A program made the position numbers and the translations under genes. A DNA stretch of 64,000 nt, taken from positions 62,001 through 126,000 of the forward strand of contig NZ_JAURYU010000045.1 of assembly GCF_030653755.1 (NCBI RefSeq), written 5' to 3'. Shown piece after piece: positions 35,388-55,900 of the stretch (position 1 is the first letter of the stretch; every line of letters starts with the position of its first letter). The notes beneath the pieces are model-generated. The model was not told the DNA's origin and did no database searches. It saw only the letters and a list, made by a program, of their open reading frames with translations. The stretch comes from Methylotenera sp. (GTDB lineage Bacteria; Pseudomonadota; Gammaproteobacteria; Burkholderiales; Methylophilaceae).

Positions 35388-35587
35388 AATAATTTTGTAG
35401 TTAAAAGAAATAACTGTTGCACACACATAGATTTGTTTGCAACGCACTGCCAGCATAATCCCAGCCTCAAACTGTGCTTTTCCCCAGTAGCACATGCGCT
35501 GAAAAAATCTTTCATAAATATTTCCATTTGTTTCAAATCTGTAACAAATTCTCTTGAGTAATTAATTTTTTTATGCTAGTTTCTGAC

Positions 35588-35606
35588 ATGCGTCAAATTG
35601 ACGCAT
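35588..35606. promoter_or_regulatory. RegA/PrrA-type operator upstream of the cox operon
   Basis: ATGCGTCAAATTGACGCAT is a 9+1+9 palindrome containing GCGTC-AAATT-GACGC, an exact match to the RegA/PrrA/ActR pattern GCGNC-N5-GNCGC. It lies 52 bp before the first gene of the cox operon. RegA is encoded in this window. I cannot place the -10/-35 with confidence. Confidence 0.65.
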
Positions 35607-35657: not shown

Positions 35658-36122
35658 ATGACGGTTTCTGGCTCAAACGGCAACATACTGATTGCAAAGC
35701 CAAATAACTCACTATCCCCAACAGGATTTGTCTGGTTGTTTGTGGGTGTTTTCACCATCACCTCGACAATTACTGTGGGGTTTGTTTTAGCAGGTGCTTG
35801 GTTGGTGCTGCCGTTTGCTGGGCTTGAGATTCTAGTACTAGCCTACGTGTTAATGAACGCTTATTTGCACTACGGTGACTATGAAAGCATTTCGTTAATT
35901 AATGATGATGTAGTGGTTGAGCAATACAGTTACAAAAGTTTTAAGAAATACACTTTTCAACGTTACTGGGTTAGGGTGACATTACGTGAGACCCTAGACG
36001 GTACGGTCGCGATTTTCATTGGCTCTCATGGCAAGGAAATCGAGTTTGGCAGTCGTTATATCAACAAAGAAGAGCGAGAGTCCATCGCCAAGCAACTGAA
36101 GCAAGATTTAAAAATCGTTTAA
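35658..36122 (+). CDS. DUF2244 membrane protein, first gene of the cox operon
   Basis: A 154-residue protein with two central transmembrane helices (about 24-46 and 50-70) followed by a soluble domain. The pattern (a PNNSLSPTG opening, helices, then FGSRYINKEERESIAKQL) fits DUF2244, a family of unknown function found next to cytochrome oxidase genes. Its stop overlaps an in-frame ATG upstream of coxB, so translation is probably coupled. A role in oxidase assembly is inferred from position only. Confidence 0.85.
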   Translation: MTVSGSNGNILIAKPNNSLSPTGFVWLFVGVFTITSTITVGFVLAGAWLVLPFAGLEILVLAYVLMNAYLHYGDYESISLINDDVVVEQYSYKSFKKYTFQRYWVRVTLRETLDGTVAIFIGSHGKEIEFGSRYINKEERESIAKQLKQDLKIV

Positions 36123-36145
36123 TGGTTTTTGTTTTGGGAGAAGGT

Positions 36146-37360
36146 ATGTTGAAGCAGGCTATGAAAAAGATTGGTTTCGGTTTATTTTTGTTACTTACAG
36201 CGCCCCTAGCGCTTGCTGAGTATCGCTGGAACTTTCCTGAACCAGTAACACCGATGGCGCTTGATACGCTACATGTTCACAATAAATTCATGCTGATTGT
36301 TGCCGTGATTTTTGTTGTAGTACTCGCCATCATGATTTACTCATTGATCAAACACCGCAAAAGTGTTGGTCATCAAGCGGTGGCAGACAAAGCACCGTCA
36401 ACCGCTACAGAAATTTTCTGGACACTCATCCCATTCGTTATTTTACTCGTCATTGACTTTGTCATCATGGGCATTCCTGCATATCACAGCGTGGTTATGA
36501 TGGAAGACACCAGAAACGAGTCTGACATGGTGCTCAAAGTCACGGGTTCACAATGGCGCTGGCAATATGAGTACATGGGCAATACCGACAAAGGAAGCCA
36601 AGATGGTTTGGTCGATGCAAAAGGTATTAAGTTTGTCAGCAACCTTTCCACTCCTCAAAACCAAGTGGATGGCACCGTACCTCCTGTAGACACCCCCGAC
36701 AGCCCTTATCTATTAGATGTAGACAACCGACTTGTGCTACCAGTCGGTGCAAAGGTCCGCATATTAATGACATCGACCGATGTATTGCACAACTGGTGGG
36801 TACCGCAATTCGGCTCCTCCCGTCTGGCAGTGCCAGGGTTTATTCGTGAAACCTGGGTACAAGTGGATAAAGCAGGTACTTATCGCGGTCAATGTAAAGA
36901 GTTGTGTGGCAAAGGCCACGGTTATATGCCTGTGGTGGTAGACGCACTGCCTAAAGAAGAATACGCCGCATGGGTCGCGCTTAAAAAGAATGAGATTAAC
37001 GAGCAAGCGGCAGGTGCAGATAAAGAGTGGTCTAAAGACGAGTTAATGGAGCAAGGGAAAGTCGTCTACGAGAAAAACTGTGCAGTGTGCCATATGGCAT
37101 CAGGTGCAGGGTTACCTCCAGCCTTCCCTGCGCTTACTGGCAGTAAAATTACAACCTCACCAATATTTGATGCTGATGGCAAATATCTACCAGATAGCCA
37201 TATGGATCGAGTACTAAACGGTGTGCGTGTCATGCCAGCATGGAAAGCACTATTAAATGATACGGAAATTGCCGCTGTCATTACTTACGAACGTAACGCG
37301 CTGGGTAACAGCGTAGGCGATGTTGTTCAGCCTTCGCAAGTTAAAGCTGCGCGTCAATAA
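36146..37360 (+). CDS. coxB: Cytochrome c oxidase subunit II with fused cytochrome c domain
   Basis: Subunit II receives electrons from cytochrome c through the CuA centre. The 404-residue precursor has a signal peptide (to about 24, TAPLALA), two TM helices (about 45-65 and 85-110), and the CuA cupredoxin domain. The CuA ligands are in GQCKELCGKGHGYMPV. A C-terminal class I cytochrome c follows (CAVCH near 310, axial Met in RVMPAWKAL). This is the caa3-type architecture. I chose ATG 36146 over the track start because of its GGAGAAGG Shine-Dalgarno. coxA follows after 21 nt. Confidence 0.95.
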   Translation: MLKQAMKKIGFGLFLLLTAPLALAEYRWNFPEPVTPMALDTLHVHNKFMLIVAVIFVVVLAIMIYSLIKHRKSVGHQAVADKAPSTATEIFWTLIPFVILLVIDFVIMGIPAYHSVVMMEDTRNESDMVLKVTGSQWRWQYEYMGNTDKGSQDGLVDAKGIKFVSNLSTPQNQVDGTVPPVDTPDSPYLLDVDNRLVLPVGAKVRILMTSTDVLHNWWVPQFGSSRLAVPGFIRETWVQVDKAGTYRGQCKELCGKGHGYMPVVVDALPKEEYAAWVALKKNEINEQAAGADKEWSKDELMEQGKVVYEKNCAVCHMASGAGLPPAFPALTGSKITTSPIFDADGKYLPDSHMDRVLNGVRVMPAWKALLNDTEIAAVITYERNALGNSVGDVVQPSQVKAARQ

Positions 37361-37381
37361 ATATAGGTACAGGAGATAATT

Positions 37382-38974
37382 ATGAGCACTACAACAGTCG
37401 CACATCATGATGAGCACACTGACCATCCCACTGGGATTATGCGTTGGCTCACCACGACCAACCATAAAGACATTGGCACCATGTACCTGACATTTTCACT
37501 TATTATGTTCTTGGTAGGTGGCTCAATGATTTTGGGCATTCGTGCAGAGCTATTTCAGCCTGGTCTACAATTGATGAACCCCGATTTCTTTAATCAGCTC
37601 ATCGGCGTGCATGCCCTTATTATGATTTTTGCTGCATTAATGCCCGCTGCTACAGGCTTTGCTAACTGGATGATTCCGCTACAAATTGGCGCTCCAGATA
37701 TGGCTTTGCCGCGTTTAAATAACTGGGGTTTCTGGCTACTGCCACCTTCAGCAATTTTACTCACACTTCCATTTACCTTAGCACTATTTGGGATTGGTGA
37801 TGGCGCGTTAGCTACTGGCTGGACATTCTACCCACCACTCTCCATTCAAGGTGGCATTGGTGTCGACTTCGCAATTTTTGCAGTTCACTTACTCGGCATT
37901 TCATCTGTATTAGGTTCTATTAACATCATTGTTACATTATTTAATATGCGTGCACCTGGCATGACATTTATGAAAATGCCGATGTTTGCATGGGGCTGGT
38001 TGATTACCGCATTCTTGTTGATTGCAACCATTCCAGTACTCGCTGGTGCCGTGACGATGCTACTCACAGACCGTCATTTTGGCACGCACTTTTTTGACGC
38101 GGCTGGTGGCGGTGACCCTATCATGTTCCAGCACTTATTTTGGTTCTTTGGTCACCCTGAGGTTTATATCTTATTGTTACCAGTATGGGGTTTCATTCCA
38201 CAAATTTTACAAACATTCTCACGCAAACCAATGTATGGCTACAAAGCACAAGTTTATTCATTAATAGCCATTGGCGCGATGTCTATCATTGTGTGGGCAC
38301 ACCATTTCTTTACTGCGGGGATGCCTGTCCCAGCTTTGCTCTACTTTATGTATAGCACAATGGCGATTTCACTACCGCTTGCAGTGCTGTTTTTCTGTTG
38401 GATTAAAACCATGTGGCGCGGCTCTATGAGCTTTGAAACACCCATGTTATTTACTGTCGGCTGGATTATTCTATTTGGTATTGGCGGCCTAACTGGCTTA
38501 GTGCTAGCAGACGTTGCAGCAGATGCGCAATATCACAATAGTTACTTTGTAGTGGCGCATTTCCACTACACACTATTTGCTGGCGGCATCATGGGCATTA
38601 TGGCTGGCGTTTATTACTGGCTACCAAAAATGACTGGACATATGTATAACGAAAAGCTTGGCCAATTGCACTTCTGGTTAACCGCAATTTCGTTTAATCT
38701 AACATTCATTCCACAGTTCTTCTTAGGCTTAGCTGGCATGCCACGTCGCATACCAGACTATGCATTACAGTTTGCTGAGTTCAATATGATCTCTTCAATT
38801 GCTGCGTTTGTACTCGGGTTATCACAACTCATCTTCGTGTATAACATTATCAGCACCGTCAGAGGTGGCAAAAAAGCTACTGACCAAGTGTGGGAAGGTG
38901 CTGAAGGGCTGGAGTGGACATTATCATCCCCCCCTCCTTACCATAGCTTTTCAGAGCAACCGACAGTTAAATAA
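37382..38974 (+). CDS. coxA: Cytochrome c oxidase subunit I
   Basis: The catalytic subunit of the aa3-type heme-copper oxidase, 530 residues with 12 TM helices. Heme a ligation appears in GVHALIMIF (about residue 75). The CuB His-Tyr motif is in WFFGHPEVYILLLP, the CuB histidines in WAHHFFTAGMP, and the heme a/a3 ligands in HFHYTLFAGG. It follows coxB after 21 nt with a good AGGAG-type Shine-Dalgarno and precedes the small assembly peptide. Confidence 0.97.
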   Translation: MSTTTVAHHDEHTDHPTGIMRWLTTTNHKDIGTMYLTFSLIMFLVGGSMILGIRAELFQPGLQLMNPDFFNQLIGVHALIMIFAALMPAATGFANWMIPLQIGAPDMALPRLNNWGFWLLPPSAILLTLPFTLALFGIGDGALATGWTFYPPLSIQGGIGVDFAIFAVHLLGISSVLGSINIIVTLFNMRAPGMTFMKMPMFAWGWLITAFLLIATIPVLAGAVTMLLTDRHFGTHFFDAAGGGDPIMFQHLFWFFGHPEVYILLLPVWGFIPQILQTFSRKPMYGYKAQVYSLIAIGAMSIIVWAHHFFTAGMPVPALLYFMYSTMAISLPLAVLFFCWIKTMWRGSMSFETPMLFTVGWIILFGIGGLTGLVLADVAADAQYHNSYFVVAHFHYTLFAGGIMGIMAGVYYWLPKMTGHMYNEKLGQLHFWLTAISFNLTFIPQFFLGLAGMPRRIPDYALQFAEFNMISSIAAFVLGLSQLIFVYNIISTVRGGKKATDQVWEGAEGLEWTLSSPPPYHSFSEQPTVK

Positions 38975-50310: not shown

Positions 50311-51507
50311 CTAGATAGCGACAGCCTTTAACCCCTCTGTTGACGTATTCCACATCAAGAATACCTGTTTATTTTTTTGTAGCAATATTGGGTAGTCAGC
50401 ACTGGCTGTGGTATCTGCAATCACAGTGGGTGTTCCCCAACTTTTACCTTCATCATCAGATTTCATCAACCATATTTGACTCTTACCTGCATCTTTTTCA
50501 CGCCAAACCAGCCAGACATTATCGCCAACTGCCGCTAAAGCTGGATGCCCTGCCTGTTTCTTCATATTCCCAAACTTTTTAGAGGGAGATGACACCCAAG
50601 CCTCGCCGTCCATGCGTGCATAATATAGCGTAGCCTTCTCGCCAGCTTCATCATTACCACCATCAAACCAAGCCATGTGATAACCCCACCAGCGCTCCCC
50701 CTCTCCCCCACTCGCAAGTGCTGCGCCATGATGAGGGCAGCCATCTATCTTCCAGCGGCCGAAAGTTGCACGTTTGGGCTGTGGCGTTGTTTGATTGCTT
50801 GGAATCTCTGCAATCATGTGATCGCGCTCACTGCCTTCGAACACATGCCGCCACATTGCAACGACTGTACCATCGGGTTTGTTGGTAAGTGCTATACGAC
50901 AACACTCGCAACTACTATCTGCAAGTTTTTGCTCTAATGAAAAGCTTACGCCTTTATTTTCTGAAACAGCATAGTAAATTGCAGCACCCTCATAAGCTTG
51001 ATTGGCTGCCTTAGCAGCAAACAAATCTCGCTTATCTACCCAAGTCACAGTAATTTTGCCATCTGCGCCGACATTTAATGAATCAAAGCGATGCGTAATT
51101 TCGTTACGGTCCTGATGCACGATATAAGGTGTTTCAAACGTTTTACCTGCATCGATTGAACGCGCAAACCATATATATCCAGCAAATGGTTTTTTAAGCG
51201 CCTCTGTCCATGTTAAATAAATATAGCCTTCTGGTGAAATAGCCACCTTAGGACGCGCTTCTCCATCTGCACCAATTTTATGTGGGATGTGATTAACATT
51301 TGTCGGTTTTGAGAAGGTTTGCCCAGCATCTACACTCTTACTGACCTGTAAGAACCCATCATGCACTAACGCGCGCCATAAATTACCCTGCGCATCAAAA
51401 GCTACACTTACCGCGACAGCTGAACTCTGTTGCTTGGTATGTTCTTCGTGGGCATTTAAAACAAACGCACAACAAAATAAACTTAATCCAAAAAAATATT
51501 TAATCAT
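50311..51507 (-). CDS. Secreted Asp-box beta-propeller (sialidase-like fold), likely metal-related
   Basis: A 398-residue exported protein. The signal peptide (about 1-19, FVLNA) would leave a mature N-terminus beginning HEEH. The body is a sialidase-type beta-propeller with at least three Asp boxes (SVDAGQTF, SIDAGKTF, SDDEGKSW). Annotation pipelines would call it exo-alpha-sialidase, but I see no sialidase Arg triad that I could defend. It has a CECC cluster (SSCECCRIAL) and a CPHHG motif, good candidates for a metal site. Its ATG overlaps the stop of the TonB receptor gene by one base, so the two are translated together. A role in copper or other metal uptake is inference. Confidence 0.75.
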   Translation of the reverse strand: MIKYFFGLSLFCCAFVLNAHEEHTKQQSSAVAVSVAFDAQGNLWRALVHDGFLQVSKSVDAGQTFSKPTNVNHIPHKIGADGEARPKVAISPEGYIYLTWTEALKKPFAGYIWFARSIDAGKTFETPYIVHQDRNEITHRFDSLNVGADGKITVTWVDKRDLFAAKAANQAYEGAAIYYAVSENKGVSFSLEQKLADSSCECCRIALTNKPDGTVVAMWRHVFEGSERDHMIAEIPSNQTTPQPKRATFGRWKIDGCPHHGAALASGGEGERWWGYHMAWFDGGNDEAGEKATLYYARMDGEAWVSSPSKKFGNMKKQAGHPALAAVGDNVWLVWREKDAGKSQIWLMKSDDEGKSWGTPTVIADTTASADYPILLQKNKQVFLMWNTSTEGLKAVAI

Positions 51508-53822
51508 CAGTAATCAAATTTCAATTGCACATAAGCCGTGCGTTGTGGGTAAGGGTGAAATACATAAGATTTATAATTATTCAAATTATCTACGCCCAAA
51601 CTAGCAGTATAGCCTTTAGCAAACTTGTAGTTAGTTTTAAAGTCTACGACAAAAAACTTACTTGCAGCGCCAAATGTACTGTCATTTACATCACTATTAT
51701 CAAGTGCATTATATTGGCGACCACTATAACGAGCGGCTAAACTATACGTAAGATTATTCCCACTGCGGTAAGTGGCTACCGCTTTCAACATATTGCGCGG
51801 AATACGCGGTGGTTTATTGCCTATCGTATTGGGTGCAGCTTCATTACTTAACACCTCAGCCTCTGTAAAAGTAGCGCTTCCTTGAAAATCCAAACCATGG
51901 ATTAATACATCCTGCCACTGTGTAGCCAACTCTAGTCCGCGTGTACGAATATGGTCTACATTCTGTACAAAACCACAAGCAGACCTTGTACAAACACCAG
52001 TATCGTAAGGAATTGCACTACCATTCGCAAGGCTTTGCGAAATAAGCGCATCGTATTTATTTTCACTAAACAAACTAGCTCTAATCAAGCCGCTATCGTA
52101 GCGTCGCTCAACTGTGAGCTCTGCTGCAATCACCTCTTCTGGTTTTAAATTTGGATTAGCTTCAACAAAATAAGCTGTAGCACCATTCTGCAATGGCTGA
52201 AACATTTCGCTTACTGTTGGGAAGCGATATGCTTGACCTAACGCTAAGCGATATCCCCAAGCTGGTTCAGGCTCAAAGCTGATGGAAATCTTAGGTGAGA
52301 ATTTAGTTTCAGACTTATCTTTATAGTTTGCTGTTCGCAATACACTAGCAATTGTGGTTTTATTTTGGCCATCTTCAGCTTGCCAATGTTCTGCTCGCGC
52401 TCCCAAAGTGAGCGCCCATTTTGGGTTAATCTGCCATTTATCTTGCGCATAAATTGCATGGGTGACAGTTTCTCCACGTGCAGATGTATTTAAAGCCTCG
52501 TCATTGCCAGCTTTCCAGTCCGCAGTATTATGCGTATCACTTTTTAACGTGTATCGATCAACATGGTAGCCTAAATCAACAGTATGCTCATGTGGTCGTA
52601 AAGTAGCGCGTGCATCAAACACTGTCCAACCTGTTCCTGACAAGTCAGTGATGCGGCCAGTTCTTGTGATGTAAGGGTTACCTTGAGTCACCGTACCTGA
52701 AGCTATTGCATTAGCTGTGCTGTTTTTATCTTTTTGGTAGTCATAATCAGATAACGTTAATTGCCAATCAAAAAAGCCTTTCGTATTAGACTTAACATCC
52801 AGTGCCTGCATGACATGAAGTGACTCAGTTTCAGCAGGATTCATTCCCGAAACATCATAACGTTGACCATTAAAACTGACCCTACCGTTGTATACAGGAT
52901 TTCCCGCAGCATCCTTAATATAACTCTCAACATCTGTTGTGCCTTTCATATCCCAAACTGCCAAGGTATAGGCTATCTTAAGTGCGGGATTGATGTCGTA
53001 AGCTGTCTTCAGCTTAATGTTAGTCTGTTTGTTGCTATCAATACTGTTTGCCCCAAAAATCACTCGATCTGCATTTGTCTCACTTTTATCCTGATATGCT
53101 CCAGTTACTACAGGGCTTGCTCCAGGTGCAGTAGATGAAAGATTAGCCGTTGAAAAATTCATCGGCTGCCCTTCATTTTCCAAATAATCAGCACCCAACC
53201 AAAATGAAAAGTCATTCACCTTGTTACCAAAAGAGGCAGTCAAGTGATTGCCTTGATAGTGCTCATCAGTGCCATAAAGTTTAAAGTCCTGTGCAAAAGA
53301 CTGTGCACTTGCGTGTGCCTCAAACTTTTCTGGCATACGCGTGGCTATGCTCATCACACCACCAAACGAGTTACCAGCATACAGCGCAGAAAACGGCCCA
53401 TACATCATGCTAATGCTTTCAATTTCCTCTGGGCTCACCATGCCCCAACGTGGTGGGAATGCGAAGGAGTTACCAAGTAAATTAGAAAGTAGTACACCAT
53501 CCGCATACAGCAGACTTTGCGCACTGGATAAGGTACCAATCGTACGCGTCGCGATAATTCCGTTTCTGTCACCGATAAAACGCTCTCGTACTTGTATGCT
53601 AGGTAGATACTTCAAGGTTTGCGCAGGCGTTGCTGCGTTGATGTTCTCTTCAATCTGCTGTTTATCAAAAGTCTCTACAGTGGCTGGGTGCTTACTGATT
53701 CGACTATCAATCATCGATGCACGCACTTCAATGATCTCTAAGTCGATGGCTTCATTATGCTCTGCAAGTGATGTCATACTAAAACTGGCTGCAACGACTG
53801 TAAAAATAAGCTTTATTTGCAT
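51507..53822 (-). CDS. TonB-dependent outer-membrane receptor
   Basis: A 771-residue receptor with a signal peptide (about 1-20, MTSLA), a plug domain (about 35-160, with GVLLSNLLGNSFAFPPRW and ALYAGNSFGGVMSI), and a 22-strand barrel ending in the aromatic residue of KFDY. A CTRSAC pair lies in a predicted extracellular loop near residue 600. The substrate cannot be read from the sequence. The coupled propeller gene and the adjacent copper-dependent oxidase genes make copper the first guess; lanthanides are an alternative in a methylotroph. Two RegA-type sites lie between it and the divergent regB. Confidence 0.92.
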   Translation of the reverse strand: MQIKLIFTVVAASFSMTSLAEHNEAIDLEIIEVRASMIDSRISKHPATVETFDKQQIEENINAATPAQTLKYLPSIQVRERFIGDRNGIIATRTIGTLSSAQSLLYADGVLLSNLLGNSFAFPPRWGMVSPEEIESISMMYGPFSALYAGNSFGGVMSIATRMPEKFEAHASAQSFAQDFKLYGTDEHYQGNHLTASFGNKVNDFSFWLGADYLENEGQPMNFSTANLSSTAPGASPVVTGAYQDKSETNADRVIFGANSIDSNKQTNIKLKTAYDINPALKIAYTLAVWDMKGTTDVESYIKDAAGNPVYNGRVSFNGQRYDVSGMNPAETESLHVMQALDVKSNTKGFFDWQLTLSDYDYQKDKNSTANAIASGTVTQGNPYITRTGRITDLSGTGWTVFDARATLRPHEHTVDLGYHVDRYTLKSDTHNTADWKAGNDEALNTSARGETVTHAIYAQDKWQINPKWALTLGARAEHWQAEDGQNKTTIASVLRTANYKDKSETKFSPKISISFEPEPAWGYRLALGQAYRFPTVSEMFQPLQNGATAYFVEANPNLKPEEVIAAELTVERRYDSGLIRASLFSENKYDALISQSLANGSAIPYDTGVCTRSACGFVQNVDHIRTRGLELATQWQDVLIHGLDFQGSATFTEAEVLSNEAAPNTIGNKPPRIPRNMLKAVATYRSGNNLTYSLAARYSGRQYNALDNSDVNDSTFGAASKFFVVDFKTNYKFAKGYTASLGVDNLNNYKSYVFHPYPQRTAYVQLKFDY

Positions 53823-53940
53823 CCTATATCCATGATTTTATTAGTATTAATTATCCGTATAGCAATCCAAGATAACTGCCTCTTAGATATACTTTATCCC
53901 AATAGATAACGAGTATATTTTAGTTATTCAATATACGGAA

Positions 53941-53957
53941 TGCGGCTAATTGTCGCA
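53941..53957. promoter_or_regulatory. RegA/PrrA-type site 1 between the receptor gene and regB
   Basis: TGCGGCTAATTGTCGCA contains GCGGC-TAATT-GTCGC, an exact GCGNC-N5-GNCGC match with near-symmetric flanks. It lies 119 bp upstream of the receptor ATG and 74 bp upstream of regB, so it could act on either or both. Confidence 0.65.
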
Positions 53958-53977
53958 GGTAACATAGAAGCATCAGC

Positions 53978-53992
53978 GCGACAATTTGACGC
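53978..53992. promoter_or_regulatory. RegA/PrrA-type site 2 upstream of regB
   Basis: GCGACAATTTGACGC is a second exact GCGNC-N5-GNCGC match. A TATAAT (54016-54021) follows, with no matching -35 at the right spacing. A start about 7 nt after it would put this site near -43, a usual activator position. The track's ORF start at 53986 falls inside this site and is rejected. Confidence 0.65.
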
Positions 53993-54030
53993 AATGCAAT
54001 TTATCAATCGGCACGTATAATAATCAAGGT

Positions 54031-55311
54031 ATGAATACGCAATTACCTATTTTAGAAAATCCTACTCGCCGTAACCTACAGCGCTTATTTTTGTTGCGTA
54101 GCGTCATGATAGCCTTCATGCTAGCCGCAACATTAACCTTGTTTTACTTAAAAATCCCACTCCCCAACATGCCGATTGCCTTTGCAGTCGGCGGCATGTT
54201 GCTGCTCAACTTCATGACATTGCTGCGCCTTAAGAAATTTAGCAACGTCACAGACCAAGAGTTACTATTGCAACTCTTGGGTGATTTAGTAGCACTCACT
54301 GTGCTATTTTATTTTACTGGTGGCTACAGCAACCCTTTGGTATGGATGTATCTATTACCACTCACTGTTGCGGCAGTTGCATTAAAACGCGAATACGCAT
54401 GGCTACTAGCAGCAATAGCCGTCAGTTGCTATTCAACCCTCGTGTTTTACTACGTACCGCTCTCACATTTACACATGCATTATTTGGCTGGAAAGTCGTT
54501 AGATATCCATTTGGTGGGCATGTGGCTAGGCTTTGTGGTGAGTGCTGGCATTATTGCTTTTTTTGTCACACGTATTGGGCAAAGCTTACGTGATTATGAT
54601 CAAATCATGGCGTCGATTCGCGAAAAGTCACTAGAAAGTGAGCGCGCACTCTCACTAGGCACGTTGGCGGCCAGCGCAGCGCACGAACTGGGAACGCCCT
54701 TGGCTACCATGGCAATCATCAGCAAAGAGCTCGCGCAGGACCTTTTAAATCAACCTGAACAATTGCAACAGCTAGAAATCATCCGTACCCAAATCGGACG
54801 TTGTAAGGAAATATTATCCTCAATTACCCATAATGCGGGTCAAAGTCGTGCTGATGCTGGACAAGGTTTAACCCTCAATCAATTTTTACAAGAAGCAATT
54901 CAGCGCTGGCGTGATACGCGCCCTGCGACAGAACTCACAGTTGATTTAACCAACAGTAGCAGCGATCCATTAATATTTACTGATAGAACACTAAGCCAAG
55001 CCATACAAAACTTATTAGATAATGCAGCAGATGCCTCACCAGAACGCGTGTTATTCAATGCGAGCTGGAATGAGGATACTTTACAAATTCATATTAGAGA
55101 TTTTGGGAATGGCCTCAGTGATGAAGTTAAAAAGCTGCTGGGCACCCCATTCTTTAGCTCAAAAAATGGGGATGGTATGGGCTTAGGGGTATATCTCACA
55201 GAGATTATTCTCGCAAAGTTCGGCGGCACGCTGACACTAAGCAATCACAATGAAGGCGGTGTGCTTACTGTCGTAAAATTACCGCTACAAAAATTACGTA
55301 TCGAGCACTGA
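54031..55311 (+). CDS. regB: Redox-sensing histidine kinase RegB (PrrB/ActS family)
   Basis: RegB senses the redox state of the quinone pool and phosphorylates RegA. The 426-residue protein has six TM helices (about 20-185). The conserved quinone-site heptapeptide is GGYSNPL (97-103). The family-specific H-box is AASAAHELGTPLATMAI with His218. The redox-active cysteine (Cys258) is in IGRCKEIL, equivalent to R. capsulatus Cys265. The ATPase motifs LLDNAADAS and GDGMGLGVYL follow. ATG 54031 with AAGG upstream is the start; the track ORF begins too early. regA follows 10 nt later. Confidence 0.93.
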   Translation: MNTQLPILENPTRRNLQRLFLLRSVMIAFMLAATLTLFYLKIPLPNMPIAFAVGGMLLLNFMTLLRLKKFSNVTDQELLLQLLGDLVALTVLFYFTGGYSNPLVWMYLLPLTVAAVALKREYAWLLAAIAVSCYSTLVFYYVPLSHLHMHYLAGKSLDIHLVGMWLGFVVSAGIIAFFVTRIGQSLRDYDQIMASIREKSLESERALSLGTLAASAAHELGTPLATMAIISKELAQDLLNQPEQLQQLEIIRTQIGRCKEILSSITHNAGQSRADAGQGLTLNQFLQEAIQRWRDTRPATELTVDLTNSSSDPLIFTDRTLSQAIQNLLDNAADASPERVLFNASWNEDTLQIHIRDFGNGLSDEVKKLLGTPFFSSKNGDGMGLGVYLTEIILAKFGGTLTLSNHNEGGVLTVVKLPLQKLRIEH

Positions 55312-55321
55312 GGATGCAACA

Positions 55322-55900
55322 ATGAGTGATTACAACACAGACATCAAAAATAGCGATGAGCATCCCACGCTATTACTCGTTGATGATGATGAAGCTTTTT
55401 TAAATGCACTTGCAGCCGCAATGCGTAAACGTGGTTTTCTAGTCACACTTGCCAATAGTGCAGAAGCCGCCATTGAGCTTGCTCAGTCAGACCCACCAGA
55501 GTTTGCAGTAGTTGACCTCAAAATGTCGGGCAATTCAGGCTTAGTATTAGTCAGGCAGCTCGCAAGCTTACAAGCTGGCACCAAAATTGTGATACTAACG
55601 GGCTATGCCAGCATCGCTACCGCAATTGAAGCCATTAAGTTGGGGGCAACTCACTACTTGGCAAAACCTGTGGATGCGGATGAAATTGTTGCTGCATTTG
55701 CCAAACAATCTGGCAATGAAGAGATTGAGCTATCCCACAATCCATTATCAGTAGATCGTTTAGAGTGGGAGCATATTCAACGCGTATTAGTGGAGAATGA
55801 TGGCAACATCTCGGCCACAGCACGTAGCCTTAACATGCACAGACGCACGCTACAAAGAAAATTAGGTAAAAAACCTAGCATCAATCCAATCATCATTTAA
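55322..55900 (+). CDS. regA: Redox response regulator RegA (PrrA/ActR family)
   Basis: The 192-residue regulator has a receiver domain with the acidic pocket LLVDDDEAF, phosphoacceptor Asp65 in VVDLKMSG and the Lys in LAKPVD. A Fis-type DNA-binding helix-turn-helix follows (about 160-183), NISATARSLNMHRRTLQRKL, almost identical to the invariant RegA/PrrA recognition region. That near-identity means the GCGNC-N5-GNCGC target should be conserved, and such sites are indeed present in this window. It forms an operon with regB. Confidence 0.95.
   Translation: MSDYNTDIKNSDEHPTLLLVDDDEAFLNALAAAMRKRGFLVTLANSAEAAIELAQSDPPEFAVVDLKMSGNSGLVLVRQLASLQAGTKIVILTGYASIATAIEAIKLGATHYLAKPVDADEIVAAFAKQSGNEEIELSHNPLSVDRLEWEHIQRVLVENDGNISATARSLNMHRRTLQRKLGKKPSINPIII

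Follow-up and report, generated by a model that had tools for sequence, protein, structure and literature searches.

Here we report that two exact RegA-type palindromes lie between a TonB-dependent receptor gene and regBA in Methylotenera sp., and we consider them to be RegA operators, one for each of the two divergent promoters and activating both, with a probability of roughly 0.8 for this reading as a whole. The binding of RegA to both operators, its activating effect and the redox signal are parts of the reading that we infer from sequence comparison among relatives. The window is the whole stretch of 64,000 nucleotides that was analysed, and positions refer to it unless another contig or locus is named. 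The comparison yields a sharp model of the RegA operator, A/T-spaced and at a fixed distance to the -10 element, in a group whose RegA regulon is undescribed as far as the open-access literature shows. A further suggestion from it is that outer-membrane receptors are under direct redox control, which would link respiration to nutrient uptake.

The pattern GCGNC-N5-GNCGC is matched exactly by TGCGGCTAATTGTCGCA at 53941-53957, with the core GCGGCTAATTGTCGC at 53942-53956 (predicted RegA operator 1, no strand, assigned to the receptor promoter), and by GCGACAATTTGACGC at 53978-53992 (predicted RegA operator 2, no strand, assigned to the regB promoter). Both are held in the divergent gap of 208 bp between the receptor gene and regB, at 53823-54030. 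The first-pass annotation had described two exact palindromes in a divergent region of this size, as was found; its spacing of 22 bp has to be corrected to 21 bp between the cores, or 36 bp from centre to centre. Three exact matches occur in the window against 0.50 expected from dinucleotide shuffles, 2 of 100 of which reach three, and the third, at 35590-35604, had been missed. Under a first-order Markov model of the divergent gap the probability of one core or more was 0.0012, and two or more never appeared in 200,000 draws.

The two regulatory genes encode a redox histidine kinase (regB, 54031-55311, forward strand) and a response regulator with a Fis-type helix-turn-helix and no cysteine (regA, 55322-55900, forward strand). 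RegA scored 203 bits over its full length against NCBIfam NF033791, by far its best family and below the 250-bit equivalog cut-off, and it is called a RegA orthologue here on its other features. Its recognition helix, NMHRRTLQR, is identical in PrrA (1umq) and in a Burkholderia orthologue (3rqi), in line with the near invariance claimed for it earlier, and RegB/RegA (PrrBA, RegSR, ActSR) of Rhodobacter and Bradyrhizobium are the same regulator pair with an identical recognition-helix core. The RegB quinone motif GGxxNPF is present as GGYSNPL at residue 97, with L rather than F as the last residue. Cys258 of RegB stands exactly 40 residues after phospho-His218; the phospho-histidine of Rhodobacter capsulatus RegB, at the position we take it to have, likewise puts Cys265 40 residues downstream. 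Cys265 is the redox cysteine of the R. capsulatus kinase, and a copper-promoted Cys156 dimer has been modelled for R. capsulatus RegA (PMC9147068). The Methylotenera RegA has no cysteine and therefore the copper-dimer model cannot apply to it.

The receptor gene (51507-53822, reverse strand) encodes a plug and a barrel, and the end of the gene is overlapped by that of a BNR/Asp-box propeller protein (50311-51507, reverse strand), whose CECC motif is kept in 9 of 10 homologues. Because the genes overlap, they probably form a single operon. A substrate could not be named for this receptor, whose likeness to heme receptors is weak (best PDB match PhuR). Its predicted -10 element, TATACT (53912-53917, reverse strand), lies 24 nt from operator 1, and the hexamer at the -35 position, TTCCGT (53935-53940, reverse strand), is 17 nt from the -10; relative to the receptor start predicted near 53905, the operator centre is at about -44. 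In 16 of 16 relatives operator 1 is directly flanked by ATTCC/ATTAC at this -35 position. In all 16 receptors adjacent to regBA the hexamer TAnnnT and the core are separated by exactly 24 nt, with a mean of 0.29 of 16 at other distances, and a separately fetched set of receptor orthologues, from regBA-bearing genus members with readable upstream DNA, has the core 24 nt before TAnnnT in 19/19. The compared sequences are related, so counts of this kind are not independent and are inflated. In one genome (G025, locus L303) receptor and regBA are on different contigs, and the receptor still has the 24-nt core; in another (G029, L294 and L048), where a gene is inserted between receptor and regBA, a separate site is retained on either side. 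Two members without detectable regBA (G004 and G023, L301 and L302) have a receptor that is 62-63% identical and lacks the site (0/2, against 19/19 with regBA; Fisher p 0.005, ignoring relatedness). The 24-nt arrangement is also found at non-orthologous divergent genes, namely a different receptor (L066) and a thioredoxin-like gene (L056). The earlier suggestion that the receptor/propeller operon is under this control thus fits an operator of its own that keeps its 24-nt distance in receptors relocated or split off from regBA and is absent in two regBA-less genomes, and direct RegA control of the operon, as predicted from these sequences, is strongly supported.

On the other side, the predicted regB -10 element, TATAAT (54016-54021, forward strand), lies 23 nt from operator 2, which is thereby centred at about -43 relative to the regB promoter, whose transcript is predicted to start near 54028. 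The -10 elements in the divergent gap were located by their spacing to the cores; a sigma-70 consensus scan of the gap found no promoter because the -35 hexamers are poor. Almost every genus member has a palindrome a short distance upstream of regB, as do members of other families of the order; in a wider set of named loci reaching beyond the order it precedes regB in 43 of 76, against 8 for the reversed control. Across relatives, -10-like hexamers follow the last core before regB at 23-26, 34-35 or 45 nt, distances that step by about one helical turn. With a site conserved this widely, the predicted autoregulation of regBA by RegA, which had also been proposed beforehand, is well supported. 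The regB -10 is only 9 nt before the ATG, so the regB mRNA may be nearly leaderless; several relatives have it as close as 9 nt, or closer. Before regB in two loci, RegA palindromes are repeated in tandem, head to tail, with a period of 15 bp, in five (L060) and four (L067) copies. In G029 a gene for a small Cys-rich protein separates the receptor gene from regB, and such a gene also lies close to regB in G016 (L048/L049); by eye the protein looks copper-storage-like, and a Pfam search gave no match.

The remaining exact match in the window is a perfect palindrome, GCGTCAAATTGACGC (35590-35604, no strand). It is likewise a predicted RegA operator and covers about +1 to +15 relative to the predicted promoter of an aa3 oxidase operon that starts with a DUF2244 gene, coxB and coxA (35658-38974, forward strand). 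This promoter was read from the alignment by eye as TTGAGT, 17 nt and TGC-TAGTTT, an extended -10 (35554-35582, forward strand), and it ends 7 nt before the operator; in relatives a conserved TTGAG-N17-TAnTTT, also read by eye, ends 6-7 nt before the core. The oxidase operon has the site in 26 of 30 cases, most of the genus, and in 23/24 with regBA against 3/6 without detectable regBA (Fisher p 0.018). Upstream of the oxidase core, at a distance of about 60 to 44 nt (around 35530-35546 in the window), an inverted repeat, TGTTACA..TGTAAC, is common to the relatives. A RegA core was also found at a second ccoN (TIGR00780; L127, 1501-1515), where the distance from the start of an FNR box to the core is exactly 32 nt in all 10 loci examined (L127, L181-L188 and L194); these loci were chosen for having the site, and the evidence is the constant spacing and not the presence. 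Since the FNR box starts 32 nt before the core, the operator of the second ccoN would lie over the -10/+1 region. In four genomes (L190, L192, L193, L196) a RegA site stands 58-60 nt upstream of nosZ (TIGR04244), and an FNR box precedes the core by 52-53 nt in three of the four loci. No exact RegA site was found at the window's first ccoN (44625).

A further site, at G000:C49:101077-101091 (L118, L085), lies before a second receptor gene that is divergent from coaX. It is present in 20 of 20 readable upstream regions of this receptor, mostly with a -10-like hexamer at 23-24 nt. OprC (E 1.9e-16) is the only PDB entry that this receptor matches, and the receptor sequence contains CANHM, a CxxxM motif of the kind known from OprC. 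Its 92 bits against the TIGR01778 copper receptor are below the 472-bit equivalog cut-off, and it is therefore called OprC-like only. Compared with OprC-type copper receptors, this second receptor falls below the NCBIfam cut-off and the window receptor is not close to OprC.

We propose that RegB would sense a reduced quinone pool or low oxygen, and that RegA would then occupy both operators, each of which directly adjoins the -35 position of its promoter (operator 2 that of regB, operator 1 that of the receptor). Acting from both as a class II-type activator, it would raise the expression of regBA and of the receptor-propeller operon jointly under low oxygen or reduced quinone. RegA would also activate the OprC-like copper receptor, and it would repress the aa3 oxidase operon, the second ccoN (cbb3 oxidase) and nosZ from an operator over the -10/+1 region. 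A class II activator usually sits with its centre at about -43 beside a poor -35 hexamer, and a repressor usually sits over -10/+1. The operator geometry suggests on this ground activation of regBA and both receptors and repression of the two oxidases and NosZ. It is a tentative and rather doubtful extension that RegA in Methylotenera is a copper-economy switch, which would raise the receptors and damp the main copper enzymes (aa3, FNR-driven cbb3 and NosZ) with the sign set only by the operator position, -43 versus -10/+1; the regBA-linked receptor would then perhaps also serve for copper. Since the operator is common to the copper enzymes, the OprC-like receptor and regBA, a redox-copper link is directly testable, and it concerns environmentally important denitrifying methylotrophs, the host being a methanol-using bacterium that groups with Methylotenera by its named relatives.

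The type of site is common with RegR, GNGRCRTTNNGNCGC, and PrrA, YSCGGC(5)GWCRMA (consensuses quoted in PMC5506826), and autoregulation as well as oxidase and nos targets are also known in the Rhodobacter and Bradyrhizobium systems (PMC5359404, PMC4064962). In R. capsulatus, RegA represses nos, and cco under photosynthetic (anaerobic) growth (PMC5359404), with which the repression of oxidases and nosZ proposed for Methylotenera agrees; in Bradyrhizobium, copCAB and nos are under the control of RegR (PMC4064962). It counts against the reading proposed here that RegA of At. ferrooxidans bound promoters without a recognisable motif (PMC5506826). Methylotenera differs from Rhodobacter and Bradyrhizobium in its strict A/T-spaced sites, in a predicted direct receptor operator at fixed spacing and in a RegA without cysteine. 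The receptor had been put forward in the first-pass annotation as an undescribed RegA target, which no longer stands for effects on such genes and stands, as far as the open-access literature shows, for direct binding to a receptor promoter: R. capsulatus RegA affects iron and heme uptake genes including hmuR (PMC5359404), and in the methylotroph Methylomonas sp. DH-1 RegA has a positive effect on iron uptake and on a TonB-dependent receptor (PMC13274454). The DH-1 receptor is lowered in a regA mutant, and ChIP found RegA bound only at feo and not at the receptor, so that the effect was judged indirect (PMC13274454), which also counts against the proposed reading; the Methylotenera receptor promoter, in contrast, has a conserved predicted operator. 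In the open-access literature nothing was found that links RegA/PrrA with TonB receptors and copper, or RoxR with OprC. The RegA sites are of a kind already known; what appears to be new is that receptor genes have predicted direct operators, that these sit in a fixed geometry, and that the set of targets is linked to copper.

It is rather unlikely, yet worth weighing, that RegA occupies both operators with the opposite sign, as a repressor of the receptor and of regBA. In favour of this, many iron-uptake genes are under RegA repression in R. capsulatus (PMC5359404), and operator 1 is in contact with the -35 position. On the other hand, activators typically show the features seen here, namely a centre near -43, poor -35 hexamers and a regB site displaced upstream by full helical turns, and a repressor does not need such phasing.

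We regard it as improbable that another regulator with a similar site, be it a Fis-type response regulator or another factor, reads the palindromes. This would account for several genomes without detectable regBA that keep oxidase or OprC-like sites. Ten genus members, all draft genomes, have no detectable regBA and are mixed for RegA-type sites: the receptor site is absent (0/2), the oxidase site is absent in G004, G017 and G022 and kept in G008, G028 and G035 (3/6), and the OprC-like site is kept in G034 and G035 (2/2). Either the draft assemblies miss regBA or something else reads these sites. Against another reader, the sites recur at regB itself across families, the RegA helix is identical to that of PrrA, the oxidase sites are commoner in genomes with regBA, and the receptor sites are found only with regBA.

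It is also quite improbable that regBA alone is controlled, with both sites serving regB and the receptor a mere neighbour. Relatives without the divergent receptor keep the sites before regB, so conservation there needs no receptor, and in some species one site could serve both sides. Activation of both promoters by RegA is favoured over this since the receptor retains its operator at 24 nt away from regBA (L303) and after an insertion (L294/L048), has none where regBA is absent, and is matched in its arrangement by the OprC-like receptor elsewhere in the genome.

The genome-wide frequency of the sites was assessed by pattern searches with the reversed pattern as control. The bare GCGNC-N5-GNCGC gave 28 matches against 10 reversed, and its version with an A/T spacer gave 9 against 1. 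The motif thus clearly exceeds random frequency with the A/T spacer, as anticipated for a RegA site, and is not very specific without it. Among the nine A/T-spaced matches, five are convincing promoter sites (operators 1 and 2, the oxidase, the second ccoN at L127 and the OprC-like receptor at L118) and the remainder are hairpin-like repeats. That the palindromes are chance matches to a short palindrome, to which the 28 bare matches against 10 would lend some colour, is hardly credible, since phylogenetic footprinting across relatives, with conservation and exact spacing over many genomes, excludes a chance origin. A site near an ArsR/metallo-beta-lactamase gene pair (L081) has a G/C spacer. 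As a genome-wide predictor the bare pattern was rejected, many of its matches being GCGGCTA[CGT]TAGCCGC repeats or otherwise unconvincing. These repeat palindromes occur in at least 8 copies on several contigs of the genome and probably form a small family of repeats that has nothing to do with RegA.
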